A DNA stretch of 64,000 nt from Loxodes magnus (Eukaryota; Ciliophora; Karyorelictea; Loxodida; Loxodidae). Positions within the stretch are counted from its first letter, which is position 1; every line of letters begins with the position of its first letter. Below are positions 1 through 59,912 of this stretch, in pieces. The stretch spans positions 1-64,000 of the forward strand of contig CAMPDV010002364.1 of assembly GCA_946699065.1 (NCBI GenBank). The letters run 5' to 3'. The position numbers were made by a program, and so were the translations under genes. The notes beneath the pieces are model-generated. The model had not been told where the DNA came from. It saw only the letters and a list, made by a program, of their open reading frames with translations, and searched no databases.

Positions 1-1196
1 TCAGAGTTCATCGTATCGGGAAGTTATGATTATACTGTGAGACTATGGGACGTCAAGACAGGTACCTGTAAGACCATGAGTGGTCACACTAGTTATGTAT
101 CATCTGTGGCTATATCCAGTGATTCAGAGTTCATCGTATCGGGAAGTTATGATTATACTGTGAGACTATGGGACGTCAAGACAGGTACCTGTAAGACCAT
201 GAGTGATCACACTAGTTATGTATCATCTGTGGCTATATCCAGTGATTCAGAGTTCATCGTATCGGGAAGTTATGATTATACGGTGAGACTATGGGACGTC
301 AAGACAGGTACCTGTAAGACCATGAGTGGTCACACTAGTTATGTATTATCTGTGGCTATATCCAGTGATTCAGAGTTCATCGTATCGGGAAGTTATGATT
401 AGACTGTGAGACTATGGGACGTCAAGACAGGTACCTGTAAGACCATGAGTGGTCACACTAGTTATGTATTATCTGTGGCTATATCCAGTGATTCAGAGTT
501 CATCGTATCGGGAAGTTATGATTATACTGTGAGACTATGGGACGTCAAGACAGGTACCTGTAAGACCATGAGTGGTCACACTAGTTATGTATCATCTGTG
601 GCTATATCCAGTGATTCAGAGTTCATCGTATCGGGAAGTTATGATTATACGGTGAGACTATGGGACGTCAAGACAGGTACCTGTAAGACCATGAGTGGTC
701 ACACTAGTTATGTATCATCTGTGGCTATATCCAGTGATTCAGAGTTCATCGTATCGGGAAGTTATGATTATACGGTGAGACTATGGGACGTCAAGACAGG
801 TACCTGTAAGACCATGAGTGATCACACTAGTTATGTATCATCTGTGGCTATATCCAGTGATTCAGAGTTCATCGTATCGGGAAGTTATGATTAGACGGTG
901 AGACTATGGGACGTCAAGACAGGTACCTGTAAGACCATGAGTGGTCACACTAATTAGGTATTATCTGTGGCTATATCCAGTGATTCAGAGTTCATCGTAT
1001 CGGGAAGTTATGATTATACTGTGAGACTATGGGACGTCAAGACAGGTACCTGTAAGACCATGAGTGGTCACACTAATTAGGTATTATCTGTGGCTATATC
1101 CAGTGATTCAGAGTTCATCGTATCGGGAAGTTATGATTATACGGTGAGACTATGGGACGTCAAGACAGGTACCTGTAAGACCATGAGTGATCACAC
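1..1196 (+). CDS. Giant WD40-repeat protein, partial, frame block A (TAG read as sense)
   Basis: The block is open from the first base (reading Ser-Glu-Phe-Ile), so the gene begins upstream of the window. It holds about ten WD40 units of 41 residues. In-frame TAG codons occur in slot 25 (SYD-TAG-TV, near 400 and 892) and slot 5 (HTN-TAG-V, near 955 and 1078). With the standard code these would cut it into ORFs of 121 and 162 residues, each starting at the GTG of Val27. None has an upstream start region or ribosome-binding site, because the bases before each are just more repeat. The block ends where one T is missing in TCACAC-AGTT (expected TCACACTAGTT), shifting the frame by one. WD40 proteins are usually scaffolds that bind partners through propeller faces; no specific partner can be inferred. 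Confidence 0.6.
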
Positions 1197-2548
1197 AGTT
1201 ATGTATCATCTGTGGCTATATCCAGTGATTCAGAGTTCATCGTATCGGGAAGTTATGATTATACGGTGAGACTATGGGACGTCAAGACAGGTACCTGTAA
1301 GACCATGAGTGGTCACACTAGTTATGTATCATCTGTGGCTATATCCAGTGATTCAGAGTTCATCGTATCGGGAAGTTATGATTATACGGTGAGACTATGG
1401 GACGTCAAGACAGGTACCTGTAAGACCATGAGTGATCACACTAGTTATGTATCATCTGTGGCTATATCCAGTGATTCAGAGTTCATCGTATCGGGAAGTT
1501 ATGATTATACGGTGAGACTATGGGACGTCAAGACAGGTACCTGTAAGACCATGAGTGATCACACTAGTTATGTATCATCTGTGGCTATATCCAGTGATTC
1601 AGAGTTCATCGTATCGGGAAGTTATGATTATACGGTGAGACTATGGGACGTCAAGACAGGTACCTGTAAGACCATGAGTGGTCACACTAGTTATGTATCA
1701 TCTGTGGCTATATCCAGTGATTCAGAGTTCATCGTATCGGGAAGTTATGATTATACGGTGAGACTATGGGACGTCAAGACAGGTACCTGTAAGACCATGA
1801 GTGATCACACTAGTTATGTATCATCTGTGGCTATATCCAGTGATTCAGAGTTCATCGTATCGGGAAGTTATGATTATACGGTGATACTATGGGACGTCAA
1901 GACAGGTACCTGTAAGACCATGAGTGGTCACACTAGTTATGTATCATCTGTGGCTATATCCAGTGATTCAGAGTTCATCGTATCGGGAAGTTATGATTAT
2001 ACGGTGAGACTATGGGACGTCAAGACAGGTACCTGTAAGACCATGAGTGATCACACTAGTTATGTATCATCTGTGGCTATATCCAGTGATTCAGAGTTCA
2101 TCGTATCGGGAAGTTATGATTATACGGTGAGACTATGGGACGTCAAGACAGGTACCTGTAAGACCATGAGTGATCACACTAGTTATGTATCATCTGTGGC
2201 TATATCCAGTGATTCAGAGTTCATCGTATCGGGAAGTTATGATTATACGGTGAGACTATGGGACGTCAAGACAGGTACCTGTAAGACCATGAGTGGTCAC
2301 ACTAGTTATGTATCATCTGTGGCTATATCCAGTGATTCAGAGTTCATCGTATCGGGAAGTTATGATTAGACGGTGAGACTATGGGACGTCAAGACAGGTA
2401 CCTGTAAGACCATGAGTGATCACACTAGTTATGTATCATCTGTGGCTATATCCAGTGATTCAGAGTTCATCGTATCGGGAAGTTATGATTATACTGTGAG
2501 ACTATGGGACGTCAAGACAGGTACCTGTAAGACCATGAGTGGTCACAC
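1197..2548 (+). CDS. Giant WD40-repeat protein, frame block B
   Basis: This continues the same protein after the one-base loss at 1196/1197. It has about eleven units and only one TAG (slot 25, near 2367), so 385 residues are open in the standard code from 1212. Most units alternate GH and DH at residues 1-2 (GGT or GAT), and one carries Ile instead of Arg at residue 28 (near 1884). It ends at an extra T in CACACTACATT at about 2549. The expected CACACACATT would read HTHY, and removing the T restores the upstream frame exactly. I infer a sequencing or consensus error rather than a biological frameshift. Confidence 0.6.
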
Positions 2549-2549
2549 T

Positions 2550-3041
2550 ACATTATGTATTATCTGTGGCTATATCCAGTGATTCAGAGTTCATCGTATC
2601 GGGAAGTTATGATTATACGGTGAGACTATGGGACGTCAAGACAGGTACCTGTAAGACCATGAGTGATCACACTAGTTATGTATCATCTGTGGCTATATCC
2701 AGTGATTCAGAGTTCATCGTATCGGGAAGTTATGATTATACGGTGAGACTATGGGACGTCAAGACAGGTACCTGTAAGACCATGAGTGATCACACTAGTT
2801 ATGTATCATCTGTGGCTATATCCAGTGATTCAGAGTTCATCGTATCGGGTAGTGGAGATTATACGGTGAGACTATGGGACGTCAAGACAGGTACCTGTAA
2901 GACCATGAGTGGTCACACACATTATGTATTATCTGTGGCTATATCCAGTGATTCAGAGTTCATCGTATCGGGAAGTTATGATTATACGGTGAGACTATGG
3001 GACGTCAAGACAGGTACCTGTAAGACCATGAGTGATCACAC
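2550..3041 (+). CDS. Giant WD40-repeat protein, frame block C
   Basis: This block is exactly four units between two identical T insertions in the CACACTACATT motif (about 2549 and 3042). It contains the first SGSGD variant, in which Tyr23 is replaced by Gly and the preceding codon changes from GGA to GGT (near 2848). There is no in-frame TAG. In the other frame each junction gives a short meaningless tail (LCIICGYIQ then TGA), which supports the junctions being errors. Otherwise it is ordinary array. Confidence 0.55.
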
Positions 3042-3042
3042 T

Positions 3043-3903
3043 ACATTATGTATCATCTGTGGCTATATCCAGTGATTCAGAGTTCATCGTATCGGGAAGT
3101 TATGATTATACGGTGAGACTATGGGACGTCAAGACAGGTACCTGTAAGACCATGAGTGATCACACTAGTTATGTATCATCTGTGGCTATATCCAGTGATT
3201 CAGAGTTCATCGTATCGGGAAGTTATGATTATACGGTGAGACTATGGGACGTCAAGACAGGTACCTGTAAGACCATGAGTGATCACACTAGTTATGTATC
3301 ATCTGTGGCTATATCCAGTGATTCAGAGTTCATCGTATCGGGAAGTTATGATTATACGGTGAGACTATGGGACGTCAAGACAGGTACCTGTAAGACCATG
3401 AGTGATCACACACATTATGTATTATCTGTGGCTATATCCAGTGATTCAGAGTTCATCGTATCGGGAAGTGCAGATTAGACGGTGAGACTATGGGACGTCA
3501 AGACAGGTACCTGTAAGACCATGAGTGGTCACACTAGTTATGTATCATCTGTGGCTATATCCAGTGATTCAGAGTTCATCGTATCGGGAAGTTATGATTA
3601 TACTGTGAGACTATGGGACGTCAAGACAGGTACCTGTAAGACCATGAGTGATCACACTAGTTATGTATCATCTGTGGCTATATCCAGTGATTCAGAGTTC
3701 ATCGTATCGGGAAGTTATGATTATACTGTGAGACTATGGGACGTCAAGACAGGTACCTGTAAGACCATGAGTGGTCACACTAGTTATGTATCATCTGTGG
3801 CTATATCCAGTGATTCAGAGTTCATCGTATCGGGAAGTTATGATTATACTGTGAGACTATGGGACGTCAAGACAGGTACCTGTAAGACCATGAGTGATCA
3901 CAC
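3043..3903 (+). CDS. Giant WD40-repeat protein, frame block D
   Basis: The block is seven units between the second and third T insertions in the CACACTACATT motif (about 3042 and 3904). It includes one SAD unit (Tyr23 to Ala, GCA) directly followed by TAG in slot 25, near 3478. Seven units is the usual size of one WD40 propeller, but the block limits are probably errors, so that match should not be given weight. Confidence 0.55.
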
Positions 3904-3905
3904 TA

Positions 3906-6900
3906 CATTATGTATCATCTGTGGCTATATCCAGTGATTCAGAGTTCATCGTATCGGGAAGTTATGATTATACGGTGAGACTATGGGACGTCAAGACAGG
4001 TACCTGTAAGACCATGAGTGGTCACACTAGTTATGTATCATCTGTGGCTATATCCAGTGATTCAGAGTTCATCGTATCGGGTAGTGGAGATTATACGGTG
4101 AGACTATGGGACGTCAAGACAGGTACCTGTAAGACCATGAGTGGTCACACTAGTTATGTATCATCTGTGGCTATATCCAGTGATTCAGAGTTCATCGTAT
4201 CGGGAAGTTATGATTATACTGTGAGACTATGGGACGTCAAGACAGGTACCTGTAAGACCATGAGTGGTCACACTAGTTATGTATCATCTGTGGCTATATC
4301 CAGTGATTCAGAGTTCATCGTATCGGGAAGTTATGATTATACGGTGAGACTATGGGACGTCAAGACAGGTACCTGTAAGACCATGAGTGATCACACTAGT
4401 TATGTATTATCTGTGGCTATATCCAGTGATTCAGAGTTCATCGTATCGGGAAGTTATGATTATACGGTGATACTATGGGACGTCAAGACAGGTACCTGTA
4501 AGACCATGAGTGATCACACACATTATGCATTATCTGTGGCTATATCCAGTGATTCAGAGTTCATCGTATCGGGAAGTTATGATTATACGGTGATACTATG
4601 GGACGTCAAGACAGGTACCTGTAAGACCATGAGTGATCACACTAGTTATGTATCATCTGTGGCTATATCCAGTGATTCAGAGTTCATCGTATCGGGAAGT
4701 TATGATTATACGGTGAGACTATGGGACGTCAAGACAGGTACCTGTAAGACCATGAGTGGTCACACTAATTATGTATTATCTGTGGCTATATCCAGTGATT
4801 CAGAGTTCATCGTATCGGGAAGTTATGATTATACGGTGATACTATGGGACGTCAAGACAGGTACCTGTAAGACCATGAGTGGTCACACAGATTAGGTATC
4901 ATCTGTGGCTATATCCAGTGATTCAGAGTTCATCGTATCGGGAAGTTATGATTATACGGTGAGACTATGGGACGTCAAGACAGGTACCTGTAAGACCATG
5001 AGTGGTCACACTAGTTATGTATCATCTGTGGCTATATCCAGTGATTCAGAGTTCATCGTATCGGGTAGTGGAGATTATACGGTGAGACTATGGGACGTCA
5101 AGACAGGTACCTGTAAGACCATGAGTGGTCACACACATTATGTATTATCTGTGGCTATATCCAGTGATTCAGAGTTCATCGTATCGGGAAGTTATGATTA
5201 TACGGTGATACTATGGGACGTCAAGACAGGTACCTGTAAGACCATGAGTGGTCACACAGATTAGGTATCATCTGTGGCTATATCCAGTGATTCAGAGTTC
5301 ATCGTATCGGGAAGTTATGATTAGACGGTGAGACTATGGGACGTCAAGACAGGTACCTGTAAGACCATGAGTGGTCACACTAGTTATGTATCATCTGTGG
5401 CTATATCCAGTGATTCAGAGTTCATCGTATCGGGAAGTTATGATTATACGGTGAGACTATGGGACGTCAAGACAGGTACCTGTAAGACCATGAGTGATCA
5501 CACTAGTTATGTATTATCTGTGGCTATATCCAGTGATTCAGAGTTCATCGTATCGGGAAGTTATGATTATACGGTGATACTATGGGACGTCAAGACAGGT
5601 ACCTGTAAGACCATGAGTGGTCACACTAGTTATGTATCATCTGTGGCTATATCCAGTGATTCAGAGTTCATCGTATCGGGAAGTTATGATTATACGGTGA
5701 GACTATGGGACGTCAAGACAGGTACCTGTAAGACCATGAGTGATCACACTAGTTATGTATCATCTGTGGCTATATCCAGTGATTCAGAGTTCATCGTATC
5801 GGGAAGTTATGATTATACGGTGAGACTATGGGACGTCAAGACAGGTACCTGTAAGACCATGAGTGATCACACTAGTTATGTATCATCTGTGGCTATATCC
5901 AGTGATTCAGAGTTCATCGTATCGGGAAGTTATGATTATACGGTGAGACTATGGGACGTCAAGACAGGTACCTGTAAGACCATGAGTGATCACACACATT
6001 ATGTATTATCTGTGGCTATATCCAGTGATTCAGAGTTCATCGTATCGGGAAGTTATGATTATACGGTGATACTATGGGACGTCAAGACAGGTACCTGTAA
6101 GACCATGAGTGATCACACTAGTTATGTATCATCTGTGGCTATATCCAGTGATTCAGAGTTCATCGTATCGGGAAGTTATGATTATACGGTGAGACTATGG
6201 GACGTCAAGACAGGTACCTGTAAGACCATGAGTGGTCACACTAATTATGTATTATCTGTGGCTATATCCAGTGATTCAGAGTTCATCGTATCGGGAAGTT
6301 ATGATTATACGGTGATACTATGGGACGTCAAGACAGGTACCCGTAAGACCATGAGTGGTCACACTAATTAGGTATCATCTGTGGCTATATCCAGTGATTC
6401 AGAGTTCATCGTATCGGGAAGTTATGATTAGACGGTGAGACTATGGGACGTCAAGACAGGTACCTGTAAGACCATGAGTGATCACACTAGTTATGTATCA
6501 TCTGTGGCTATATCCAGTGATTCAGAGTTCATCGTATCGGGAAGTTATGATTATACGGTGAGACTATGGGACGTCAAGACAGGTACCTGTAAGACCATGA
6601 GTGGTCACACTAATTATGTATTATCTGTGGCTATATCCAGTGATTCAGAGTTCATCGTATCGGGAAGTTATGATTATACGGTGATACTATGGGACGTCAA
6701 GACAGGTACCTGTAAGACCATGAGTGGTCACACAGATTAGGTATCATCTGTGGCTATATCCAGTGATTCAGAGTTCATCGTATCGGGAAGTTATGATTAT
6801 ACGGTGAGACTATGGGACGTCAAGACAGGTACCTGTAAGACCATGAGTGGTCACACTAGTTATGTATCATCTGTGGCTATATCCAGTGATTCAGAGTTCA

Positions 6901-9900: not shown

Positions 9901-11586
9901 CAGGTACCTGTAAGACCATGAGTGGTCACACACATTATGTATTATCTGTGGCTATATCCAGTGATTCAGAGTTCATCATATCGGGAAGTTATGATTATAC
10001 GGTGAGACTATGGGACGTCAAGACAGGTACCTGTAAGACCATGAGTGATCACACTAGTTATGTATCATCTGTGGCTATATCCAGTGATTCAGAGTTCATC
10101 ATATCGGGAAGTTATGATTATACGGTGAGACTATGGGACGTCAAGACAGGTACCTGTAAGACCATGAGTGGTCACACTAGTTATGTATCATCTGTGGCTA
10201 TATCCAGTGATTCAGAGTTCATCGTATCGGGAAGTTATGATTATACGGTGAGACTATGGGACGTCAAGACAGGTACCTGTAAGACCATGAGTGGTCACAC
10301 TAATTATGTATTATCTGTGGCTATATCCAGTGATTCAGAGTTCATCGTATCGGGAAGTTATGATTATACGGTGATACTATGGGACGTCAAGACAGGTACC
10401 TGTAAGACCATGAGTGGTCACACACATTATGTATCATCTGTGGCTATATCCAGTGATTCAGAGTTCATCGTATCGGGTAGTGGAGATTATACGGTGAGAC
10501 TATGGGACGTCAAGACAGGTACCTGTAAGACCATGAGTGGTCACACACATTATGTATTATCTGTGGCTATATCCAGTGATTCAGAGTTCATCATATCGGG
10601 AAGTTATGATTATACGGTGAGACTATGGGACGTCAAGACAGGTACCTGTAAGACCATGAGTGATCACACTAGTTATGTATCATCTGTGGCTATATCCAGT
10701 GATTCAGAGTTCATCATATCGGGAAGTTATGATTATACGGTGAGACTATGGGACGTCAAGACAGGTACCTGTAAGACCATGAGTGGTCACACTAGTTATG
10801 TATCATCTGTGGCTATATCCAGTGATTCAGAGTTCATCGTATCGGGTAGTGGAGATTATACGGTGAGACTATGGGACGTCAAGACAGGTACCTGTAAGAC
10901 CATGAGTGGTCACACTAGTTATGTATCATCTGTGGCTATATCCAGTGATTCAGAGTTCATCGTATCGGGAAGTTATGATTATACTGTGAGACTATGGGAC
11001 GTCAAGACAGGTACCTGTAAGACCATGAGTGGTCACACACATTATGTATCATCTGTGGCTATATCCAGTGATTCAGAGTTCATCGTATCGGGAAGTTATG
11101 ATTATACGGTGAGACTATGGGACGTCAAGACAGGTACCTGTAAGACCATGAGTGATCACACTAGTTATGTATCATCTGTGGCTATATCCAGTGATTCAGA
11201 GTTCATCGTATCGGGAAGTTATGATTATACGGTGAGACTATGGGACGTCAAGACAGGTACCTGTAAGACCATGAGTGGTCACACACATTATGTATCATCT
11301 GTGGCTATATCCAGTGATTCAGAGTTCATCGTATCGGGAAGTTATGATTATACGGTGAGACTATGGGACGTCAAGACAGGTACCTGTAAGACCATGAGTG
11401 GTCACACTAGTTATGTATCATCTGTGGCTATATCCAGTGATTCAGAGTTCATCGTATCGGGAAGTTATGATTAGACTGTGAGACTATGGGACGTCAAGAC
11501 AGGTACCTGTAAGACCATGAGTGGTCACACTAATTAGGTATTATCTGTGGCTATATCAAGTGATTCAGAGTTCATCGTATCGGGAA
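3906..11586 (+). CDS. Giant WD40-repeat protein, frame block E
   Basis: One reading frame is held for 7.7 kb (about 62 units) if TAG is sense. TAGs lie in slot 5 (HTD-TAG and HTN-TAG, for example near 4893, 5262, 6369, 6738, 8214 and 8337) and in slot 25 (near 5322, 6429, 8766 and 11472). Within it, 8772-11474 is the longest stretch of the window free of any stop in the standard code (900 residues, about 22 units). Variant units include SGSGD, IISGS (Val19 to Ile), HTHY, HTNY and R28I, plus a Val6 to Ala change near 4528 (GTA to GCA). It ends at a net 7-base loss near 11587 that removes the Tyr-Asp-Tyr codons. The duplicate of this segment near 18960 is intact. Confidence 0.65.
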
Positions 11587-12140
11587 GAGTACGGTGAGAC
11601 TATGGGACGTCAAGACAGGTACCTGTAAGACCATGAGTGGTCACACTAGTTATGTATCATCTGTGGCTATATCCAGTGATTCAGAGTTCATCGTATCGGG
11701 AAGTTATGATTATACTGTGAGACTATGGGACGTCAAGACAGGTACCTGTAAGACCATGAGTGGTCACACTAGTTATGTATCATCTGTGGCTATATCCAGT
11801 GATTCAGAGTTCATCGTATCGGGTAGTGGAGATTATACGGTGAGACTATGGGACGTCAAGACAGGTACCTGTAAGACCATGAGTGGTCACACACATTATG
11901 TATTATCTGTGGCTATATCCAGTGATTCAGAGTTCATCGTATCGGGAAGTTATGATTATACGGTGAGACTATGGGACGTCAAGACAGGTACCTGTAAGAC
12001 CATGAGTGGTCACACTAATTATGTATTATCTGTGGCTATATCCAGTGATTCAGAGTTCATCGTATCGGGAAGTTATGATTATACGGTGATACTATGGGAC
12101 GTCAAGACAGGTACCTGTAAGACCATGAGTGGTCACACAC
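7882..12140 (+). repeat. Large segmental duplication within the array, copy 1
   Basis: The order of variants matches 14640-19520. The offset is 6,758 bases (55 units minus the 7-base loss near 11587) up to about 9650. It becomes 7,373 bases (60 units minus 7) afterwards, because the second copy carries five extra units. The rare silent ATATCAAG marker at about 11554 recurs near 18927, as does the TGTRK unit (8187 and 14945). Confidence 0.8.
8772..11474 (+). other. Longest TAG-free run of WD40 units (900 codons)
   Basis: About 22 consecutive units lack TAG in either slot. The apparent start is the GTG of Val27 just after a TAG, so it is a stop-to-stop interval and not a gene start. It lies inside block E and shares its frame. 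Its second half recurs at 16883-18847 with the same order of variants. It matters because even with the standard code a large array can stay open here, while at 35-37 kb a TAG appears about every second unit. Confidence 0.7.
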
Positions 12141-30100: not shown

Positions 30101-33100
30101 TATGTATCATCTGTGGCTATATCCAGTGATTCAGAGTTCATCGTATCGGGAAGTTATGATTATACTGTGAGACTATGGGACGTCAAGACAGGTACCTGTA
30201 AGACCATGAGTGGTCACAAACATTATGTATTATCTGTGGCTATATCCAGTGATTCAGAGTTCATCGTATCGGGAAGTTATGATTATACGGTGAGACTATG
30301 GGACGTCAAGACAGGTACCTGTAAGACCATGAGTGATCACACTAGTTATGTATCATCTGTGGCTATATCCAGTGATTCAGAGTTCATCGTATCGGGAAGT
30401 TATGATTATACGGTGAGACTATGGGACGTCAAGACAGGTACCTGTAAGACCATGAGTGGTCACACTAGTTATGTATCATCTGTGGCTATATCCAGTGATT
30501 CAGAGTTCATCGTATCGGGAAGTTATGATTATACGGTGATACTATGGGACGTCAAGACAGGTACCTGTAAGACCATGAGTGGTCACACTAGTTATGTATC
30601 ATCTGTGGCTATATCCAGTGATTCAGAGTTCATCGTATCGGGAAGTTATGATTATACGGTGAGACTATGGGACGTCAAGACAGGTACCTGTAAGACCATG
30701 AGTGGTCACACTAGTTATGTATCATCTGTGGCTATATCCAGTGATTCAGAGTTCATCGTATCGGGAAGTTATGATTAGACGGTGAGACTATGGGACGTCA
30801 AGACAGGTACCTGTAAGACCATGAGTGATCACACTAGTTATGTATCATCTGTGGCTATATCCAGTGATTCAGAGTTCATCGTATCGGGAAGTTATGATTA
30901 TACTGTGAGACTATGGGACGTCAAGACAGGTACCTGTAAGACCATGAGTGATCACACTAGTTATGTATCATCTGTGGCTATATCCAGTGATTCAGAGTTC
31001 ATCGTATCGGGAAGTTATGATTATACTGTGAGACTATGGGACGTCAAGACAGGTACCTGTAAGACCATGAGTGGTCACAAACATTATGTATTATCTGTGG
31101 CTATATCCAGTGATTCAGAGTTCATCGTATCGGGAAGTTATGATTATACGGTGAGACTATGGGACGTCAAGACAGGTACCTGTAAGACCATGAGTGATCA
31201 CACTAGTTATGTATCATCTGTGGCTATATCCAGTGATTCAGAGTTCATCGTATCGGGAAGTTATGATTATACGGTGAGACTATGGGACGTCAAGACAGGT
31301 ACCTGTAAGACCATGAGTGGTCACACTAGTTATGTATCATCTGTGGCTATATCCAGTGATTCAGAGTTCATCGTATCGGGAAGTTATGATTATACGGTGA
31401 TACTATGGGACGTCAAGACAGGTACCTGTAAGACCATGAGTGGTCACACTAGTTATGTATCATCTGTGGCTATATCCAGTGATTCAGAGTTCATCGTATC
31501 GGGAAGTTATGATTATACGGTGAGACTATGGGACGTCAAGACAGGTACCTGTAAGACCATGAGTGATCACACTAGTTATGTATCATCTGTGGCTATATCC
31601 AGTGATTCAGAGTTCATCGTATCGGGTAGTGGAGATTATACGGTGAGACTATGGGACGTCAAGACAGGTACCTGTAAGACCATGAGTGGTCACACACATT
31701 ATGTATTATCTGTGGCTATATCCAGTGATTCAGAGTTCATCGTATCGGGAAGTTATGATTATACTGTGAGACTATGGGACGTCAAGACAGGTACCTGTAA
31801 GACCATGAGTGATCACACTAGTTATGTATCATCTGTGGCTATATCCAGTGATTCAGAGTTCATCGTATCGGGAAGTTATGATTATACTGTGAGACTATGG
31901 GACGTCAAGACAGGTACCTGTAAGACCATGAGTGATCACACTAGTTATGTATCATCTGTGGCTATATCCAGTGATTCAGAGTTCATCGTATCGGGAAGTT
32001 ATGATTATACGGTGAGACTATGGGACGTCAAGACAGGTACCTGTAAGACCATGAGTGATCACACACATTATGTATTATCTGTGGCTATATCCAGTGATTC
32101 AGAGTTCATCGTATCGGGAAGTGCAGATTAGACGGTGAGACTATGGGACGTCAAGACAGGTACCTGTAAGACCATGAGTGGTCACACTAGTTATGTATCA
32201 TCTGTGGCTATATCCAGTGATTCAGAGTTCATCGTATCGGGAAGTTATGATTATACGGTGAGACTATGGGACGTCAAGACAGGTACCTGTAAGACCATGA
32301 GTGGTCACACACATTATGTATTATCTGTGGCTATATCCAGTGATTCAGAGTTCATCGTATCGGGAAGTTATGATTATACGGTGAGACTATGGGACGTCAA
32401 GACAGGTACCTGTAAGACCATGAGTGGTCACACTAATTAGGTATTATCTGTGGCTATATCCAGTGATTCAGAGTTCATCGTATCGGGAAGTTATGATTAG
32501 ACGGTGAGACTATGGGACGTCAAGACAGGTACCTGTAAGACCATGAGTGGTCACACTAGTTATGTATCATCTGTGGCTATATCCAGTGATTCAGAGTTCA
32601 TCGTATCGGGAAGTTATGATTATACGGTGAGACTATGGGACGTCAAGACAGGTACCTGTAAGACCATGAGTGATCACACTAGTTATGTATTATCTGTGGC
32701 TATATCCAGTGATTCAGAGTTCATCGTATCGGGAAGTTAAGATTATACGGTGATACTATGGGACGTCAAGACAGGTACCTGTAAGACCATGAGTGGTCAC
32801 ACTAGTTATGTATCATCTGTGGCTATATCCAGTGATTCAGAGTTCATCGTATCGGGAAGTTATGATTAGACGGTGAGACTATGGGACGTCAAGACAGGTA
32901 CCTGTAAGACCATGAGTGATCACACTAGTTATGTATCATCTGTGGCTATATCCAGTGATTCAGAGTTCATCGTATCGGGAAGTTATGATTATACGGTGAG
33001 ACTATGGGACGTCAAGACAGGTACCTGTAAGACCATGAGTGATCACACTAGTTATGTATCATCTGTGGCTATATCCAGTGATTCAGAGTTCATCGTATCG

Positions 33101-39100: not shown

Positions 39101-42100
39101 CCCAGTGATTCAGAGTTCATCGTATCGGGAAGTTATGATTAGACTGTGAGACTATGGGACGTCAAGACAGGTACCTGTAAGACCATGAGTGGTCACACTA
39201 GTTATGTATCATCTGTGGCTATATCCAGTGATTCAGAGTTCATCGTATCGGGAAGTTATGATTATACGGTGAGACTATGGGACGTCAAGACAGGTACCTG
39301 TAAGACCATGAGTGGTCACACTAATTAGGTATTATCTGTGGCTATATCCAGTGATTCAGAGTTCATCGTATCGGGAAGTGCAGATTATACGGTGAGACTA
39401 TGGGACGTCAAGACAGGTACCTGTAAGACCATGAGTGATCACACTAGTTATGTATCATCTGTGGCTATATCCAGTGATTCAGAGTTCATCGTATCGGGAA
39501 GTTATGATTATACGGTGAGACTATGGGACGTCAAGACAGGTACCTGTAAGACCATGAGTGGTCACACTAATTAGGTATTATCTGTGGCCATATCCAGTGA
39601 TTCAGAGTTCATCGTATCGGGAAGTTATGATTAGACGGTGAGACTATGGGACGTCAAGACAGGTACCTGTAAGACCATGAGTGATCACACTAGTTATGTA
39701 TCATCTGTGGCTATATCCAGTGATTCAGAGTTCATCGTATCGGGTAGTGGAGATTAGACGGTGAGACTATGGGACGTCAAGACAGGTACCTGTAAGACCA
39801 TGAGTGGTCACACTAGTTATGTATCATCTGTGGCTATATCCAGTGATTCAGAGTTCATCGTATCGGGAAGTTATGATTATACGGTGAGACTATGGGACGT
39901 CAAGACAGGTACCTGTAAGACCATGAGTGGTCACACTAGTTATGTATCATCTGTGGCTATATCCAGTGATTCAGAGTTCATCATATCGGGAAGTTATGAT
40001 TATACGGTGAGACTATGGGACGTCAAGACAGGTACCTGTAAGACCATGAGTGGTCACACACATTATGTATTATCTGTGGCTATATCCAGTGATTCAGAGT
40101 TCATCGTATCGGGAAGTTATGATTATACGGTGAGACTATGGGACGTCAAGACAGGTACCTGTAAGACCATGAGTGATCACACTAGTTATGTATCATCTGT
40201 GGCTATATCCAGTGATTCAGAGTTCATCGTATCGGGAAGTTATGATTAGACGGTGAGACTATGGGACGTCAAGACAGGTACCTGTAAGACCATGAGTGGT
40301 CACACTAATTAGGTATTATCTGTGGCTATATCCAGTGATTCAGAGTTCATCGTATCGGGAAGTTATGATTATACGGTGAGACTATGGGACGTCAAGACAG
40401 GTACCTGTAAGACCATGAGTGGTCACATTAATTAGGTATTATCTGTGGCTATATCCAGTGATTCAGAGTTCATCGTATCGGGAAGTTATGATTATACTGT
40501 GAGACTATGGGACGTCAAGACAGGTACCTGTAAGACCATGAGTGGTCACACTAATTAGGTATTATCTGTGGCTATATCCAGTGATTCAGAGTTCATCATA
40601 TCGGGAAGTTATGATTATACGGTTAGACTATGGGACGTCAAGACAGGTACCTGTAAGACCATGAGTGGTCACACTAATTAGGTATCATCTGTGGCTATAT
40701 CCAGTGATTCAGAGTTCATCGTATCGGGTAGTGGAGATTATACGGTGAGACTATGGGACGTCAAGACAGGTACCTGTAAGACCATGAGTGGTCACACACA
40801 TTATGTATTATCTGTGGCTATATCCAGTGATTCAGAGTTCATCGTATCGGGAAGTTATGATTATACGGTGAGACTATGGGACGTCAAGACAGGTACCTGT
40901 AAGACCATGAGTGGTCACACTAGTTATGTATCATCTGTGGCTATATCCAGTGATTCAGAGTTCATCGTATCGGGAAGTTATGATTATACGGTGAGACTAT
41001 GGGACGTCAAGACAGGTACCTGTAAGACCATGAGTGGTCACACTAATTAGGTATTATCTGTGGCTATATCCAGTGATTCAGAGTTCATCGTATCGGGAAG
41101 TTATGATTATACGGTGATACTATGGGACGTCAAGACAGGTACCTGTAAGACCATGAGTGGTCACACAGATTAGGTATCATCTGTGGCTATATCCAGTGAT
41201 TCAGAGTTCATCGTATCGGGAAGTTATGATTAGACGGTGAGACTATGGGACGTCAAGACAGGTACCTGTAAGACCATGAGTGGTCACACTAGTTATGTAT
41301 CATCTGTGGCTATATCCAGTGATTCAGAGTTCATCGTATCGGGAAGTTATGATTATACGGTGAGACTATGGGACGTCAAGACAGGTACCTGTAAGACCAT
41401 GAGTGATCACACTAGTTATGTATTATCTGTGGCTATATCCAGTGATTCAGAGTTCATCGTATCGGGAAGTTATGATTATACGGTGATACTATGGGACGTC
41501 AAGACAGGTACCTGTAAGACCATGAGTGGTCACACTAGTTATGTATCATCTGTGGCTATATCCAGTGATTCAGAGTTCATCGTATCGGGAAGTTATGATT
41601 ATACGGTGAGACTATGGGACGTCAAGACAGGTACCTGTAAGACCATGAGTGATCACACTAGTTATGTATCATCTGTGGCTATATCCAGTGATTCAGAGTT
41701 CATCATATCGGGAAGTTATGATTATACGGTGAGACTATGGGACGTCAAGACAGGTACCTGTAAGACCATGAGTGGTCACACTAGTTATGTATTATCTGTG
41801 GCTATATCCAGTGATTCAGAGTTCATCGTATCGGGAAGTTATGATTAGACTGTGAGACTATGGGACGTCAAGACAGGTACCTGTAAGACCATGAGTGGTC
41901 ACACTAGTTATGTATTATCTGTGGCTATATCCAGTGATTCAGAGTTCATCGTATCGGGAAGTTATGATTATACTGTGAGACTATGGGACGTCAAGACAGG
42001 TACCTGTAAGACCATGAGTGGTCACACTAGTTATGTATCATCTGTGGCTATATCCAGTGATTCAGAGTTCATCGTATCGGGAAGTTATGATTATACGGTG

Positions 42101-45100
42101 AGACTATGGGACGTCAAGACAGGTACCTGTAAGACCATGAGTGGTCACACTAATTAGGTATCATCTGTGGCTATATCCAGTGATTCAGAGTTCATCGTAT
42201 CGGGAAGTTATGATTATACGGTGAGACTATGGGACGTCAAGACAGGTACCTGTAAGACCATGAGTGGTCACACTAGTTATGTATCATCTGTGGCTATATC
42301 CAGTGATTCAGAGTTCATCGTATCGGGAAGTTATGATTATACGGTGAGACTATGGGACGTCAAGACAGGTACCTGTAAGACCATGAGTGGTCACACTAAT
42401 TAGGTATTATCTGTGGCTATATCCAGTGATTCAGAGTTCATCGTATCGGGAAGTTATGATTATACGGTGATACTATGGGACGTCAAGACAGGTACCTGTA
42501 AGACCATGAGTGGTCACACTAGTTATGTATCATCTGTGGCTATATCCAGTGATTCAGAGTTCATCGTATCGGGAAGTTATGATTATACGGTGAGACTATG
42601 GGACGTCAAGACAGGTACCTGTAAGACCATGAGTGATCACACTAGTTATGTATCATCTGTGGCTATATCCAGTGATTCAGAGTTCATCGTATCGGGAAGT
42701 TATGATTATACTGTGAGACTATGGGACGTCAAGACAGGTACCTGTAAGACCATGAGTGATCACACTAGTTATGTATCATCTGTGGCTATATCCAGTGATT
42801 CAGAGTTCATCGTATCGGGAAGTTATGATTATACGGTGAGACTATGGGACGTCAAGACAGGTACCTGTAAGACCATGAGTGGTCACACTAGTTATGTATT
42901 ATCTGTGGCTATATCCAGTGATTCAGAGTTCATCGTATCGGGAAGTTATGATTAGACTGTGAGACTATGGGACGTCAAGACAGGTACCTGTAAGACCATG
43001 AGTGGTCACACTAGTTATGTATTATCTGTGGCTATATCCAGTGATTCAGAGTTCATCGTATCGGGAAGTTATGATTATACTGTGAGACTATGGGACGTCA
43101 AGACAGGTACCTGTAAGACCATGAGTGGTCACACTAGTTATGTATCATCTGTGGCTATATCCAGTGATTCAGAGTTCATCGTATCGGGAAGTTATGATTA
43201 TACGGTGAGACTATGGGACGTCAAGACAGGTACCTGTAAGACCATGAGTGGTCACACTAGTTATGTATCATCTGTGGCTATATCCAGTGATTCAGAGTTC
43301 ATCGTATCGGGAAGTTATGATTATACGGTGAGACTATGGGACGTCAAGACAGGTACCTGTAAGACCATGAGTGATCACACTAGTTATGTATCATCTGTGG
43401 CTATATCCAGTGATTCAGAGTTCATCGTATCGGGAAGTTATGATTATACGGTGAGACTATGGGACGTCAAGACAGGTACCTGTAAGACCATGAGTGGTCA
43501 CACTAGTTATGTATCATCTGTGGCTATATCCAGTGATTCAGAGTTCATCGTATCGGGAAGTTATGATTAGACGGTGAGACTATGGGACGTCAAGACAGGT
43601 ACCTGTAAGACCATGAGTGGTCACACTAGTTATGTATCATCTGTGGCTATATCCAGTGATTCAGAGTTCATCGTATCGGGAAGTTATGATTATACGGTGA
43701 GACTATGGGACGTCAAGACAGGTACCTGTAAGACCATGAGTGATCACACTAGTTATGTATTATCTGTGGCTATATCCAGTGATTCAGAGTTCATCGTATC
43801 GGGAAGTTATGATTATACGGTGATACTATGGGACGTCAAGACAGGTACCTGTAAGACCATGAGTGGTCACACTAGTTATGTATCATCTGTGGCTATATCC
43901 AGTGATTCAGAGTTCATCGTATCGGGAAGTTATGATTATACGGTGAGACTATGGGACGTCAAGACAGGTACCTGTAAGACCATGAGTGATCACACTAGTT
44001 ATGTATCATCTGTGGCTATATCCAGTGATTCAGAGTTCATCATATCGGGAAGTTATGATTATACGGTGAGACTATGGGACGTCAAGACAGGTACCTGTAA
44101 GACCATGAGTGGTCACACTAGTTATGTATTATCTGTGGCTATATCCAGTGATTCAGAGTTCATCGTATCGGGAAGTTATGATTAGACTGTGAGACTATGG
44201 GACGTCAAGACAGGTACCTGTAAGACCATGAGTGGTCACACTAGTTATGTATTATCTGTGGCTATATCCAGTGATTCAGAGTTCATCGTATCGGGAAGTT
44301 ATGATTATACTGTGAGACTATGGGACGTCAAGACAGGTACCTGTAAGACCATGAGTGGTCACACTAGTTATGTATCATCTGTGGCTATATCCAGTGATTC
44401 AGAGTTCATCGTATCGGGAAGTTATGATTATACGGTGAGACTATGGGACGTCAAGACAGGTACCTGTAAGACCATGAGTGGTCACACTAATTAGGTATCA
44501 TCTGTGGCTATATCCAGTGATTCAGAGTTCATCGTATCGGGAAGTTATGATTATACGGTGAGACTATGGGACGTCAAGACAGGTACCTGTAAGACCATGA
44601 GTGGTCACACTAGTTATGTATCATCTGTGGCTATATCCAGTGATTCAGAGTTCATCGTATCGGGAAGTTATGATTATACGGTGAGACTATGGGACGTCAA
44701 GACAGGTACCTGTAAGACCATGAGTGGTCACACTAATTAGGTATTATCTGTGGCTATATCCAGTGATTCAGAGTTCATCGTATCGGGAAGTTATGATTAT
44801 ACGGTGATACTATGGGACGTCAAGACAGGTACCTGTAAGACCATGAGTGGTCACACTAGTTATGTATCATCTGTGGCTATATCCAGTGATTCAGAGTTCA
44901 TCGTATCGGGAAGTTATGATTATACGGTGAGACTATGGGACGTCAAGACAGGTACCTGTAAGACCATGAGTGATCACACTAGTTATGTATCATCTGTGGC
45001 TATATCCAGTGATTCAGAGTTCATCGTATCGGGAAGTTATGATTATACTGTGAGACTATGGGACGTCAAGACAGGTACCTGTAAGACCATGAGTGATCAC

Positions 45101-48100
45101 ACTAGTTATGTATCATCTGTGGCTATATCCAGTGATTCAGAGTTCATCGTATCGGGAAGTTATGATTATACGGTGAGACTATGGGACGTCAAGACAGGTA
45201 CCTGTAAGACCATGAGTGGTCACACTAGTTATGTATTATCTGTGGCTATATCCAGTGATTCAGAGTTCATCGTATCGGGAAGTTATGATTAGACTGTGAG
45301 ACTATGGGACGTCAAGACAGGTACCTGTAAGACCATGAGTGGTCACACTAGTTATGTATTATCTGTGGCTATATCCAGTGATTCAGAGTTCATCGTATCG
45401 GGAAGTTATGATTATACTGTGAGACTATGGGACGTCAAGACAGGTACCTGTAAGACCATGAGTGGTCACACTAGTTATGTATCATCTGTGGCTATATCCA
45501 GTGATTCAGAGTTCATCGTATCGGGAAGTTATGATTATACGGTGAGACTATGGGACGTCAAGACAGGTACCTGTAAGACCATGAGTGGTCACACTAGTTA
45601 TGTATCATCTGTGGCTATATCCAGTGATTCAGAGTTCATCGTATCGGGAAGTTATGATTATACGGTGAGACTATGGGACGTCAAGACAGGTACCTGTAAG
45701 ACCATGAGTGATCACACTAGTTATGTATCATCTGTGGCTATATCCAGTGATTCAGAGTTCATCGTATCGGGAAGTTATGATTATACGGTGAGACTATGGG
45801 ACGTCAAGACAGGTACCTGTAAGACCATGAGTGATCACACTAGTTATGTATCATCTGTGGCTATATCCAGTGATTCAGAGTTCATCGTATCGGGAAGTTA
45901 TGATTATACTGTGAGACTATGGGACGTCAAGACAGGTACCTGTAAGACCATGAGTGATCACACTAGTTATGTATCATCTGTGGCTATATCCAGTGATTCA
46001 GAGTTCATCGTATCGGGAAGTTATGATTATACGGTGAGACTATGGGACGTCAAGACAGGTACCTGTAAGACCATGAGTGATCACACTAGTTATGTATCAT
46101 CTGTGGCTATATCCAGTGATTCAGAGTTCATCGTATCGGGAAGTTATGATTATACGGTGAGACTATGGGACGTCAAGACAGGTACCTGTAAGACCATGAG
46201 TGGTCACACTAGTTATGTATTATCTGTGGCTATATCCAGTGATTCAGAGTTCATCGTATCGGGAAGTTATGATTAGACTGTGAGACTATGGGACGTCAAG
46301 ACAGGTACCTGTAAGACCATGAGTGGTCACACTAGTTATGTATTATCTGTGGCTATATCCAGTGATTCAGAGTTCATCGTATCGGGAAGTTATGATTATA
46401 CTGTGAGACTATGGGACGTCAAGACAGGTACCTGTAAGACCATGAGTGGTCACACTAGTTATGTATCATCTGTGGCTATATCCAGTGATTCAGAGTTCAT
46501 CGTATCGGGAAGTTATGATTATACGGTGAGACTATGGGACGTCAAGACAGGTACCTGTAAGACCATGAGTGGTCACACTAGTTATGTATCATCTGTGGCT
46601 ATATCCAGTGATTCAGAGTTCATCGTATCGGGAAGTTATGATTATACGGTGAGACTATGGGACGTCAAGACAGGTACCTGTAAGACCATGAGTGATCACA
46701 CTAGTTATGTATCATCTGTGGCTATATCCAGTGATTCAGAGTTCATCGTATCGGGAAGTTATGATTAGACGGTGAGACTATGGGACGTCAAGACAGGTAC
46801 CTGTAAGACCATGAGTGGTCACACTAATTAGGTATTATCTGTGGCTATATCCAGTGATTCAGAGTTCATCGTATCGGGAAGTTATGATTATACTGTGAGA
46901 CTATGGGACGTCAAGACAGGTACCTGTAAGACCATGAGTGGTCACACTAATTAGGTATTATCTGTGGCTATATCCAGTGATTCAGAGTTCATCGTATCGG
47001 GAAGTTATGATTATACGGTGAGACTATGGGACGTCAAGACAGGTACCTGTAAGACCATGAGTGATCACACTAGTTATGTATCATCTGTGGCTATATCCAG
47101 TGATTCAGAGTTCATCGTATCGGGAAGTTATGATTATACGGTGAGACTATGGGACGTCAAGACAGGTACCTGTAAGACCATGAGTGGTCACACTAATTAG
47201 GTATTATCTGTGGCTATATCCAGTGATTCAGAGTTCATCGTATCGGGAAGTGGAGATTATACGGTGAGACTATGGGACGTCAAGACAGGTACCTGTAAGA
47301 CCATGAGTGGTCACACTAATTAGGTATTATCTGTGGCTATATCCAGTGATTCAGAGTTCATCGTATCGGGAAGTTATGATTATACGGTGAGACTATGGGA
47401 CGTCAAGACAGGTACCTGTAAGACCATGAGTGGTCACACTAATTATGTATCATCTGTGGCTATATCCAGTGATTCAGAGTTCATCGTATCGGGAAGTTAT
47501 GATTATACGGTGAGACTATGGGACGTCAAGACAGGTACCTGTAAGACCATGAGTGGTCACACTAGTTATGTATCATCTGTGGCTATATCCAGTGATTCAG
47601 AGTTCATCGTATCGGGAAGTTATGATTATACGGTGAGACTATGGGACGTCAAGACAGGTACCTGTAAGACCATGAGTGATCACACTAGTTATGTATCATC
47701 TGTGGCTATATCCAGTGATTCAGAGTTCATCGTATCGGGAAGTTATGATTATACGGTGAGACTATGGGACGTCAAGACAGGTACCTGTAAGACCATGAGT
47801 GATCACACTAGTTATGTATCATCTGTGGCTATATCCAGTGATTCAGAGTTCATCGTATCGGGAAGTTATGATTATACTGTGAGACTATGGGACGTCAAGA
47901 CAGGTACCTGTAAGACCATGAGTGATCACACTAGTTATGTATCATCTGTGGCTATATCCAGTGATTCAGAGTTCATCGTATCGGGAAGTTATGATTATAC
48001 GGTGAGACTATGGGACGTCAAGACAGGTACCTGTAAGACCATGAGTGGTCACACTAGTTATGTATTATCTGTGGCTATATCCAGTGATTCAGAGTTCATC

Positions 48101-57100: not shown

Positions 57101-57238
57101 ACGGTGAGACTATGGGACGTCAAGACAGGTACCTGTAAGACCATGAGTGGTCACACTAGTTATGTATTATCTGTGGCTATATCCAGTGATTCAGAGTTCA
57201 TCGTATCGGGAATTTGAGATTAGACGGTGAGACTATGG
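11591..57238 (+). CDS. Giant WD40-repeat protein, main frame block F (about 371 units)
   Basis: This is the core of the window: one phase is kept from 11591 to 57238 without a frame-breaking indel. If TAG and TAA are sense, it is open from 11591 to 57214, which is 15,208 codons. If only TAG is sense, one TAA at 32738-32740 divides it into 7,049 and 8,158 codons. All units have the same 41-residue WD40 core, so the product would hold dozens of propeller-sized sets. No signal peptide, membrane segment, catalytic domain or linker interrupts it. TAG codons occupy only slots 5 and 25. Rare changes include T34I (near 14078), an Ile-Pro pair (near 39099), T3I (near 40428) and KKGN for KTGT (near 37446 and 38061). 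The block ends in a degenerate unit with TGA (57215-57217) and a missing G near 57238. Function beyond a binding scaffold is unknown. Confidence 0.65.
12278..13561 (+). repeat. Dispersed duplicate segment with SVSAD units, copy 1
   Basis: Two units read SVSAD (GGA to GTA at residue 21, near 13051 and 13174), each followed by TAG in slot 25. The same pair recurs 22,263 bases (181 units) away. The TAG spacing around them is the same in both places, and a few residues differ. Confidence 0.75.
14640..19520 (+). repeat. Large segmental duplication within the array, copy 2
   Basis: This is the second copy of 7882-12140, with a 615-base (five-unit) insertion between about 16400 and 17040. It lacks the 7-base deletion of copy 1, so that deletion is either later than the duplication or a sequence error. 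The inserted part has HTN-TAG and HTD-TAG units. Confidence 0.8.
22830..27010 (+). repeat. 34-unit imperfect duplication, copy 1
   Basis: The TAG-bounded segment starts at 23225, 23525, 24755, 25739 and 26600 recur exactly 4,182 bases (34 x 123) later. The segments beginning at 23525 and 25739 are identical in sequence to their partners at protein level. Those at 23225 and 24755 differ in a few units. The TGTRK marker (23186) recurs at 27368. Confidence 0.8.
27011..31190 (+). repeat. 34-unit imperfect duplication, copy 2
   Basis: This abuts copy 1. A unit near 26896 reads HKHYVSS where its partner near 31078 reads HKHYVLS, so the exchange point probably lies close to it. Inside are seven-unit sub-repeats (861 bases), for example 29921 to 30782. 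Confidence 0.75.
32738..32740 (+). other. Only in-phase TAA of the array, in Tyr slot 23
   Basis: The bases read GGA AGT TAA GAT TAT, where other units have GGA AGT TAT GAT. It is the single TAA found in phase in about 520 units and falls in a Tyr slot, like all the TAGs. It is either a sense codon (UAR reassigned together), a real stop, or a base error. Confidence 0.8.
34541..35824 (+). repeat. Dispersed duplicate segment with SVSAD units, copy 2
   Basis: This is the partner of 12278-13561 at an offset of exactly 181 units. SVSAD units lie near 35314 and 35437. Differences include HTNYVL for DHTSYVS and HTHYVS for HTSYVS, so the copies have had time, or exchange, to diverge. Confidence 0.75.
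41237..43573 (+). repeat. Higher-order repeat, 19 units, copy 1
   Basis: The pattern of variants and TAGs from 41237 repeats 2,337 bases (19 x 123) later. The TAG-bounded segments of 203, 101, 78 and 180 codons follow in the same order and encode the same residues. Identity lasts about 2.26 kb and then breaks at a G/D difference at residue 1, in the last unit of the copy. Confidence 0.85.
43574..45910 (+). repeat. Higher-order repeat, 19 units, copy 2
   Basis: This directly abuts copy 1 and shares its TAG pattern and variants, including the IISGS unit near 44040 and R28I near 43822. Abutting copies at a whole-unit offset are the expected product of unequal crossing-over. A shorter related set restarts at 46280 and 48125. 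Confidence 0.85.
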
Positions 57239-57345
57239 ACGTCAAGACAGGTACCTGTAAGACCATGAGTGGTCACACTAGTTGTGTATATGCTGTGGCT
57301 ATATCCAGTGATTCAGAGTTCATCGTATCGGGAAGTTATGATTAG
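57209..57345 (+). pseudogene. Degenerate WD40 unit with TGA and one-base loss
   Basis: The unit reads GGA ATT TGA GAT TAG where GGA AGT GGA GAT is expected. It then lacks one G in CTATGGAC, and its next half reads HTSCVYAVA instead of HTSYVSSVA. The inverted copy near 62521-62610 keeps the same substitutions but has the G and lacks a different one. The substitutions are thus real and the indels are not consistent between arms. Confidence 0.65.
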
Positions 57346-59904
57346 ACGGTGAGACTATGGGACGTCAAGACAGGTACCTGTAAGACCATGAGTGATCACA
57401 CTAGTTTTGTAAGATCTGTGGCTATATCCAGTGATTCAGAGTTCATCGTATCGGGAAGTTATGATTATACTGTGAGACTATGGGACGTCAAGACAGGTAC
57501 CTGTAAGACCATGAGTGGTCACACTAATTAGGTATTATCTGTGGCTATATCCAGTGATTCAGAGTTCATCGTATCGGGAAGTTATGATTATACGGTGAGA
57601 CTATGGGACGTCAAGACAGGTACCTGTAAGACCATGAGTGATCACACTAGTTATGTATTATCTGTGGCTATATCCAGTGATTCAGAGTTCATCGTATCGG
57701 GAAGTTATGATTATACTGTGAGACTATGGGACGTCAAGACAGGTACCTGTAAGACCATGAGTGATCACACTAGTTTTGTAAGATCTGTGGCTATATCCAG
57801 TGATTCAGAGTTCATCGTATCGGGAAGTTATGATTATACGGTGAGACTATGGGACGTCAAGACAGGTACCTGTAAGACCATGAGTGGTCACACTAGTTAT
57901 GTATCATCTGTGGCTATATCCAGTGATTCAGAGTTCATCGTATCGGGAAGTTATGATTAGACGGTGAGACTATGGGACGTCAAGACAGGTACCTGTAAGA
58001 CCATGAGTGGTCACACTAGTTATGTATCATCTGTGGCTATATCCAGTGATTCAGAGTTCATCGTATCGGGAAGTTATGATTATACGGTGAGACTATGGGA
58101 CGTCAAGACAGGTACCTGTAAGACCATGAGTGGTCACACTAGTTATGTATCATCTGTGGCTATATCCAGTGATTCAGAGTTCATCGTATCGGGAAGTTAT
58201 GATTATACGGTGAGACTATGGGACGTCAAGACAGGTACCTGTAAGACCATGAGTGATCACACTAGTTATGTATCATCTGTGGCTATATCCAGTGATTCAG
58301 AGTTCATCGTATCGGGAAGTTATGATTATACTGTGAGACTATGGGACGTCAAGACAGGTACCTGTAAGACCATGAGTGATCACACTAGTTATGTATTATC
58401 TGTGGCTATATCCAGTGATTCAGAGTTCATCGTATCGGGAAGTTATGATTATACTGTGAGACTATGGGACGTCAAGACAGGTACCTGTAAGACCATGAGT
58501 GGTCACACTAATTAGGTATTATCTGTGGCTATATCCAGTGATTCAGAGTTCATCGTATCGGGAAGTTATGATTATACGGTGAGACTATGGGACGTCAAGA
58601 CAGGTACCTGTAAGACCATGAGTGGTCACACTAGTTATGTATCATCTGTGGCTATATCCAGTGATTCAGAGTTCATCGTATCGGGAAGTTATGATTATAC
58701 GGTGAGACTATGGGACGTCAAGACAGGTACCTGTAAGACCATGAGTGATCACACTAGTTATGTATCATCTGTGGCTATATCCAGTGATTCAGAGTTCATC
58801 GTATCGGGAAGTTATGATTATACTGTGAGACTATGGGACGTCAAGACAGGTACCTGTAAGACCATGAGTGATCACACTAGTTATGTATTATCTGTGGCTA
58901 TATCCAGTGATTCAGAGTTCATCGTATCGGGAAGTTATGATTATACTGTGAGACTATGGGACGTCAAGACAGGTACCTGTAAGACCATGAGTGGTCACAC
59001 TAATTAGGTATTATCTGTGGCTATATCCAGTGATTCAGAGTTCATCGTATCGGGAAGTTATGATTATACGGTGATACTATGGGACGTCAAGACAGGTACC
59101 TGTAAGACCATGAGTGGTCACACTAGTTATGTATCATCTGTGGCTATATCCAGTGATTCAGAGTTCATCGTATCGGGAAGTTATGATTATACGGTGATAC
59201 TATGGGACGTCAAGACAGGTACCTGTAAGACCATGAGTGGTCACACTAGTTATGTATTATCTGTGGCTATATCCAGTGATTCAGAGTTCATCGTATCGGG
59301 AAGTTATGATTATACGGTGAGACTATGGGACGTCAAGACAGGTACCTGTAAGACCATGAGTGGTCACACTAATTAGGTATTATCTGTGGCTATATCCAGT
59401 GATTCAGAGTTCATCGTATCGGGAAGTTATGATTATACGGTGATACTATGGGACGTCAAGACAGGTACCTGTAAGACCATGAGTGGTCACACTAGTTATG
59501 TATCATCTGTGGCTATATCCAGTGATTCAGAGTTCATCGTATCGGGAAGTTATGATTAGACGGTGAGACTATGGGACGTCAAGACAGGTACCTGTAAGAC
59601 CATGAGTGGTCACACTAGTTATGTATCATCTGTGGCTATATCCAGTGATTCAGAGTTCATCGTATCGGGAAGTTATGATTATACGGTGAGACTATGGGAC
59701 GTCAAGACAGGTACCTGTAAGACCATGAGTGATCACACTAGTTATGTATCATCTGTGGCTATATCCAGTGATTCAGAGTTCATCGTATCGGGAAGTTATG
59801 ATTATACTGTGAGACTATGGGACGTCAAGACAGGTACCTGTAAGACCATGAGTGATCACACTAGTTATGTATTATCTGTGGCTATATCCAGTGATTCAGA
59901 GTTC
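57239..59904 (+). CDS. Giant WD40-repeat protein, frame block G up to the palindrome centre
   Basis: About 22 units continue the array after the missing G near 57238. The first units are the most diverged of the window: HTSCVYAVA near 57283 and HTSFVRSVA near 57400 and 57771. After about 57850 the units return to the usual consensus. TAGs persist in both slots. The frame runs into the inversion point at 59904. Beyond it the + strand reads antisense repeat ([11 protein letters not shown]) and meets TAA at 59950-59952, so the C-terminus implied there is a junction product and not a natural end. The same units recur inverted on the other side. Confidence 0.55.
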
Positions 59905-59912
59905 GATACGAT
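59905..59912. other. 8-bp spacer at the palindrome centre
   Basis: The bases GATACGAT separate GATTCAGAGTTC on the left from its reverse complement GAACTCTGAATC on the right. The spacer continues the antisense repeat, where GATACGATGAACTC is normal, so the right arm overlaps into it. The left arm stops eight bases earlier, within the Phe17-Ile18 codons. Confidence 0.95.

Follow-up and report, generated by a model that had tools for sequence, protein, structure and literature searches.

What does TAG mean in a repeat array that looks coding and carries TAG in phase more than 100 times? The question is raised by a stretch of 64,000 nucleotides of Loxodes magnus DNA (the window; assembly GCA_946699065.1, contig CAMPDV010002364.1, positions 1 to 64,000), which is filled by tandem copies of a WD40 repeat unit. 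The original prediction for this locus, made from the letters of the sequence, was that TAG behaves as a sense codon. We prefer another reading, to which we assign a probability of about 0.65: a receptor-like WD40 array was amplified like a satellite, most of its copies are untranslated, and the genetic code is the standard one. The window alone cannot decide between a changed code and an untranslated array. Nonetheless, an untranslated array explains the placement of the TAG codons at least as well. The window has two parts:

1–59904, forward strand: tandem array of a 123-bp (41-codon) WD40 unit, 487 copies (Tandem Repeats Finder [TRF], unit extraction, Pfam).
59905–64000, reverse strand: inverted copy of the adjoining left 4.1 kb (sequence comparison).

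TRF describes positions 1–59904 as a single tandem array with a period of 123 bp, 487.1 copies and 96% matches; from 59905 to 64000 the same unit continues on the opposite strand. All counts given below were taken over 1–59904, leaving out the mirror arm. The units adjoin without any non-repeat spacer, and 480 of the 486 full units are exactly 123 bp long. Only the WD40 frame of the consensus unit is free of stops; the other five frames hold 2, 4, 3, 4 and 4. With TAG read as Gln, the translation matches the WD40 profile (Pfam PF00400) over 750 amino acids with an E value of 1.4e-185, and the closest solved chain to the unit protein is PDB 2ymu (E 2.8e-104 over 317 amino acids). An in-frame ATG stands at codon 11 in all 473 units of 123 bp from one unit extraction. 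ARAGORN found no tRNA in the window, which holds nothing but the array. At 96% matches to the consensus, the units lie above the >85% identity that marks highly internally conserved WD40 repeats in the available part of PMC4986451, a threshold set for protein repeats. Judged by sequence, the best reading is a WD40 repeat array of a receptor-like family under diversifying selection.

The in-phase stops are numerous and narrowly placed. Among the 480 units of 123 bp, TAG occupies codon 17 in 65 (14% of units) and codon 37 in 77 (16%), TAA occupies codon 35 in one, and one or more TAG codons are present in 126 units. When the in-phase portions of the indel units at 11487 and 57113 are included (482 of 486 units in all, four other indel units being uncounted), the totals are 144 TAG, one TAA and one TGA, which upholds the original claim of more than 100 in-phase TAG codons in a coding-like array. 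Every one of these 146 stops falls in unit codon 17, 35 or 37. Representative and unique cases are as follows:

955–957, forward strand: example of TAG at unit codon 17 (HTN-TAG-V).
400–402, forward strand: example of TAG at unit codon 37 (SYD-TAG-TV).
32738–32740, forward strand: the only in-phase TAA counted, at unit codon 35.
57215–57217, forward strand: the only in-phase TGA counted, at unit codon 35; the mirror arm carries this TGA too.

The TAG alleles belong to definite unit types. At codon 17, TAG follows Asn or Asp at codon 16 in 65 of 86 such units (55 with Asn, 10 with Asp) and occurs in none of the 394 others. At codon 37, it is combined with Tyr (66 units), Ala (9) or Gly (2) at codon 35. 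TAT is the main codon in each of the three columns that hold stops; besides TAG, columns 17 and 37 show TAT, AAG, TGT and TTT, never CAG. The TGA at codon 35 probably arose from a GGA allele. As separate observations, codon 13 is Asp in 168 of the 480 copies and otherwise Gly, with TAG at codon 17 found only alongside Gly (65 of 65), and rare unit types cluster at 57113–57850 (codon 17 as Cys or Phe, codon 19 as Tyr or Arg, codon 35 as TGA) and appear nowhere else in the forward arm.

Reading TAG as sense does not restore the frame. Two features define what remains:

11487–11602, forward strand: 116-bp unit with a net 7-bp deletion that shifts the frame.
32750–57217, forward strand: longest frame with TAG as sense, 8155 codons including 75 TAG.

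The TAA at 32738, the TGA at 57215 and the 7-bp deletion each break the frame whatever TAG means, so that the otherwise intact frame expected of a UAG reassignment is not what we found. We keep the deletion as real; a duplicate of its block, starting at 17015, carries a 123-bp unit at the corresponding place. Blocks without TAG extend to at most 21 units, the longest starting at 8781. A single translated product of the whole array would have about 20,000 residues (487 x 41).

The variation within the unit points to its origin. The passages available from PMC1805685 report strong diversifying selection on codons 7, 9, 25 and 27 of the Podospora anserina NWD WD40 repeat, which stand in pairs on either side of consensus codons 8 and 26 and map to the interaction surface in a model of the propeller. 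By our own mapping, which uses the spacing and the flanked Val and Asp, these would be unit codons 17, 19, 35 and 37. The seven positions used in the available part of PMC12222747 (10, 11, 12, 14, 30, 32 and 39) map to unit codons 15, 16, 17, 19, 35, 37 and 3, the last being invariant here. The whole array holds 37 alternative codon alleles. The four codons account for 13 of them (3.6 expected, p 2.7e-5) and the seven hypervariable codons for 19 (p 1.9e-6), with p-values that serve as guides, alleles being non-independent draws. In 98 units from bacterial relatives, the eight columns that vary most include codons 35, 37, 16, 19 and 17. The alleles are concentrated in codons published as selected, and the unit therefore bears the mark of a receptor-like repeat that was diversified while coding.

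Outside the seven hypervariable codons, the alleles look neutral. There are 18, of which 12 are nonsynonymous, 6 synonymous and none a stop; the possible single changes of the consensus stand at 267:83:19 (nonsynonymous:synonymous:stop), and about one stop would be expected among 18. The original prediction had also stressed that codons one step from a stop stay intact. The codons it listed do hold no stop (the Cys codon reads CGT in seven units), but the argument for reassignment is a weak one, because the copies are near-identical by recent amplification and only 37 alternative alleles are available.

The array also records exchange between its units. A block of 33 units recurs with five units different, and every difference is an allele present elsewhere in the array; this shows homogenisation. 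Another recurring block, of 20 units, differs solely by the 7-bp deletion. Most likely, the array was built and homogenised by unequal exchange and conversion between units. At 41246–45796, two neighbouring blocks of 18 units, 19 units apart, are identical unit for unit.

How far can the letters be trusted? The mirror arm and the adjoining left 4.1 kb share 4085 identical bases, with no substitutions and five single-base indels, and the turn of the palindrome (59897–59920) has an asymmetry of eight bases. Since units elsewhere in the array differ from one another, the mirror is either a second view of one molecule or a very recent inverted duplicate; probably a single molecule or read is folded back on itself. 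The mirror serves as a quality check that is not fully independent, since both arms may derive from one molecule. Of 32 unit pairs listed across the two arms, four were set aside for indels; the 28 that can be read on both sides match in their TAG slots, as do 12 of 12 slots in three duplicated blocks. Base-calling errors are an unlikely source of the TAG codons, because the mirror arm repeats the sequence without a substitution. Small indels near the left end are another matter:

1192–3909, forward strand: four single-base indels, with motifs at 1192, 2544, 3037 and 3899 (unit comparison).

All four lie at one CACAC site, at which two of the five mirror-arm discrepancies also fall. We therefore do not count them as real frame breaks; they are probably read errors. 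One and the same inserted T accounts for three of the four and occurs on two haplotypes, so it may yet be a real variant, in which case it would count against a coding array. We also left out of the allele count an apparent change from Trp to Met in the unit at 57235, which reflects a G lost from a GGG run.

Relatives of the unit were found at the protein level. An exact 26-mer of the array had no match in the viral or genome contig collections searched, blastn against the plasmid collection gave no match, and neither did a protein search of the viral contigs. Protein searches yielded nine bacterial loci among genome contigs (35–54% identity), 271 plasmid records (all below 60%) and one phage record (43%); the only eukaryotic sequences in the searched collections were PDB chains. 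In 98 units from the nine bacterial loci, column 17 holds Trp 28, Arg 24 and Gln 9 times, and column 37 holds Gln 15, His 14, Arg 9 and Lys 9 times. A simple two-column score gives 0.37 for Arg, 0.24 for Gln and 0.10 for Gly, with two columns alone informing on the residue. The original suggestion that the TAG slots favour Gln is hence weak: Arg scores at least as well. Comparison with these relatives weakly suggests Arg or Gln as the best fits for TAG and does not choose between them. In the Asn/Asp context of TAG at codon 17, Trp is the commonest residue of the relatives (17 of 36 units). A single transition from TGG to TAG in a unit of the HTNWV type would therefore be a simple source of this allele under the standard code; no TGG occurs at codon 17 in the array.

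We propose the following history. The unit would descend from a fast-evolving, internally homogenised WD40 repeat of the sort found at the C terminus of NLR-type receptors in fungi and bacteria. During its coding phase, diversifying selection may have loaded variation onto the surface codons 17, 19, 35 and 37, a pattern that is observed and whose cause we infer. Unequal exchange and conversion would then have enlarged the block to 487 or more copies, arranged like a satellite, with duplicated blocks of up to 33 units. Expansion would have removed most copies from translation, and nonsense alleles could persist because most copies were untranslated. TAG would stand where codon 17 once encoded Trp or Tyr and codon 37 encoded Lys or Tyr, and exchange between copies or drift could have raised these alleles to their present frequencies. 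The organism would use the standard code, and TAG would be meaningless in the array.

Several observations favour this history: the gathering of alternative alleles in the four selected codons, the breaks that are independent of TAG, the neutral look of the alleles outside the hypervariable codons, the homogenisation seen in the recurring block of 33 units, the restriction of TAG at codon 17 to a context in which Trp is commonest in the bacterial relatives, and the great length of a single product. Several others weigh against it. All 146 stops lie in hypervariable codons, the remaining 38 codons being free of them; both of the common stop alleles are TAG; no unit of odd length lies between those at 11487 and 57113; and stop alleles make up 4 of the 13 alleles in the four selected codons compared with 0 of 24 elsewhere (Fisher p 0.011). 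However, the placement could owe something to the codons themselves. Of the 19 one-step paths from the consensus to a stop, 8 lie within codons 17, 19, 35 and 37, three of which are TAT. The chance that four stop alleles all fall in these codons is about 0.03 (8/19 to the fourth power), and for the two common alleles alone it is about 0.18.

The same placement is what one would expect if UAG were sense, UAA and UGA remained stops, and the array belonged to one or several very large WD40 genes, and this reading is unlikely rather than far-fetched. Stops restricted to codons at which WD40 relatives tolerate many residues, 144 TAG set against one TAA and one TGA, TAG alleles that recombine like sense alleles with several partners at codons 35 and 16, and 8155 codons open when TAG is read all speak for it, and reassignment of UAG alone is known, from the available parts of the reports, in Iotanema, in a rhizarian and in phyllopharyngean ciliates (PMC5304391 and PMC11687900). 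It has to accommodate the TAA, the TGA and the 7-bp deletion within the array, neutral-looking alleles elsewhere in the unit and a product of implausible length, and TAT as the main codon at the stop columns, with the share of stop paths noted above, means that chance placement is not remote. That UAG is decoded as an amino acid in a WD40 array that resembles an immune receptor and runs to thousands of residues, with the reassigned codon at the very codons under diversifying selection, is slightly more doubtful again. If UAG (or UAR) meant Tyr, exchanges of TAT for TAG or TAA at codons 17, 35 and 37 would be synonymous, in keeping with the main codon at all three columns; but TAT lies one step from a stop anyway, relatives seldom have Tyr at the TAG columns (1 of 96 and 5 of 91), and a silent change need not be tied to Asn or Asp at codon 16 as TAG is at codon 17. 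We consider this very improbable.

Under the standard code, some blocks could be translated as shorter WD40 proteins ending at TAG, with the rest as spacer. The 21-unit block free of TAG might suffice for three seven-bladed propellers, and each of the 473 extracted units of 123 bp offers its in-frame ATG, but the absence of non-repeat sequence between units speaks against such an arrangement, which we regard as improbable. Sequencing or assembly errors as the source of the TAG codons are barely credible: a contig with a fold-back and single-base indel discrepancies invites the suspicion, and it is met by an absence of substitutions in 4085 bases of the mirror arm (the arms possibly being one molecule) and by the agreement of TAG slots between mirror pairs and duplicated blocks. 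Repeat-induced point mutation, considered as a source of the stops, is not supported; the TAG columns never hold CAG and the consensus unit keeps nine CpA. Its CA/TA and TG/TA ratios, 0.75 and 0.83, are low beside the reference values of about 2.2 for Podospora in the available part of PMC1805685; that reference is not this genome's own value, and the process keeps some probability.

What is the significance of each outcome? If the array is a satellite, as we favour, it would be a large natural record of the homogenisation of receptor repeats, in which the selected codons can still be read after amplification and nonsense alleles have spread within the array. If UAG is sense, the locus would add one more lineage to the few nuclear codes that reassign UAG alone, and would place a reassigned codon at sites on which diversifying selection acts.

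Among known systems, the UAG-only codes (UAG as Gln in Iotanema, as Leu in rhizarian exLh, and as Leu or Gln in phyllopharyngean ciliates) read TAG as sense and keep UAA as a stop. As far as the available parts of PMC5304391 and PMC11687900 show, these codes are supported by transcriptomes or genome-wide data and, for two ciliates, by genes for suppressor tRNAs, whereas the present case rests on one repeat unit with two informative columns. The array itself resembles WD40 repeats of the internally conserved type that NLR-type genes of fungi and cyanobacteria carry. Its closest sequence matches in the collections searched are bacterial NB-ARC/NACHT-WD40 proteins, most of them from cyanobacteria; the cyanobacterial hits show 42–56% identity, and several are annotated as NB-ARC or NACHT. 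Residue entropy is high at codons 16, 17, 19, 35 and 37 in these proteins too (nine loci), but no long array of this unit was found in them. Literature searches with three unit peptides gave no match; judged by listing, those on WD40 megasatellites or satellite arrays gave nothing fitting, and one on pyrrolysine nothing bearing on a WD40 array. The hnwd/NWD NLR genes of Podospora anserina (het-d, het-e and het-r) differ from the array in that 487 copies are present here, no NACHT or effector domain is visible within a window that holds only the array, and a stop in a quarter of units is not reported in the available passages of the hnwd literature. Like the array, these genes have near-identical WD40 units with exchange between units. 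In the available parts of the sources, their variation is focused on the four codons named above (PMC1805685) and is shared with the array at six of the seven positions used in PMC12222747; repeats interrupted by stops and pseudogenised family members have likewise been recorded.

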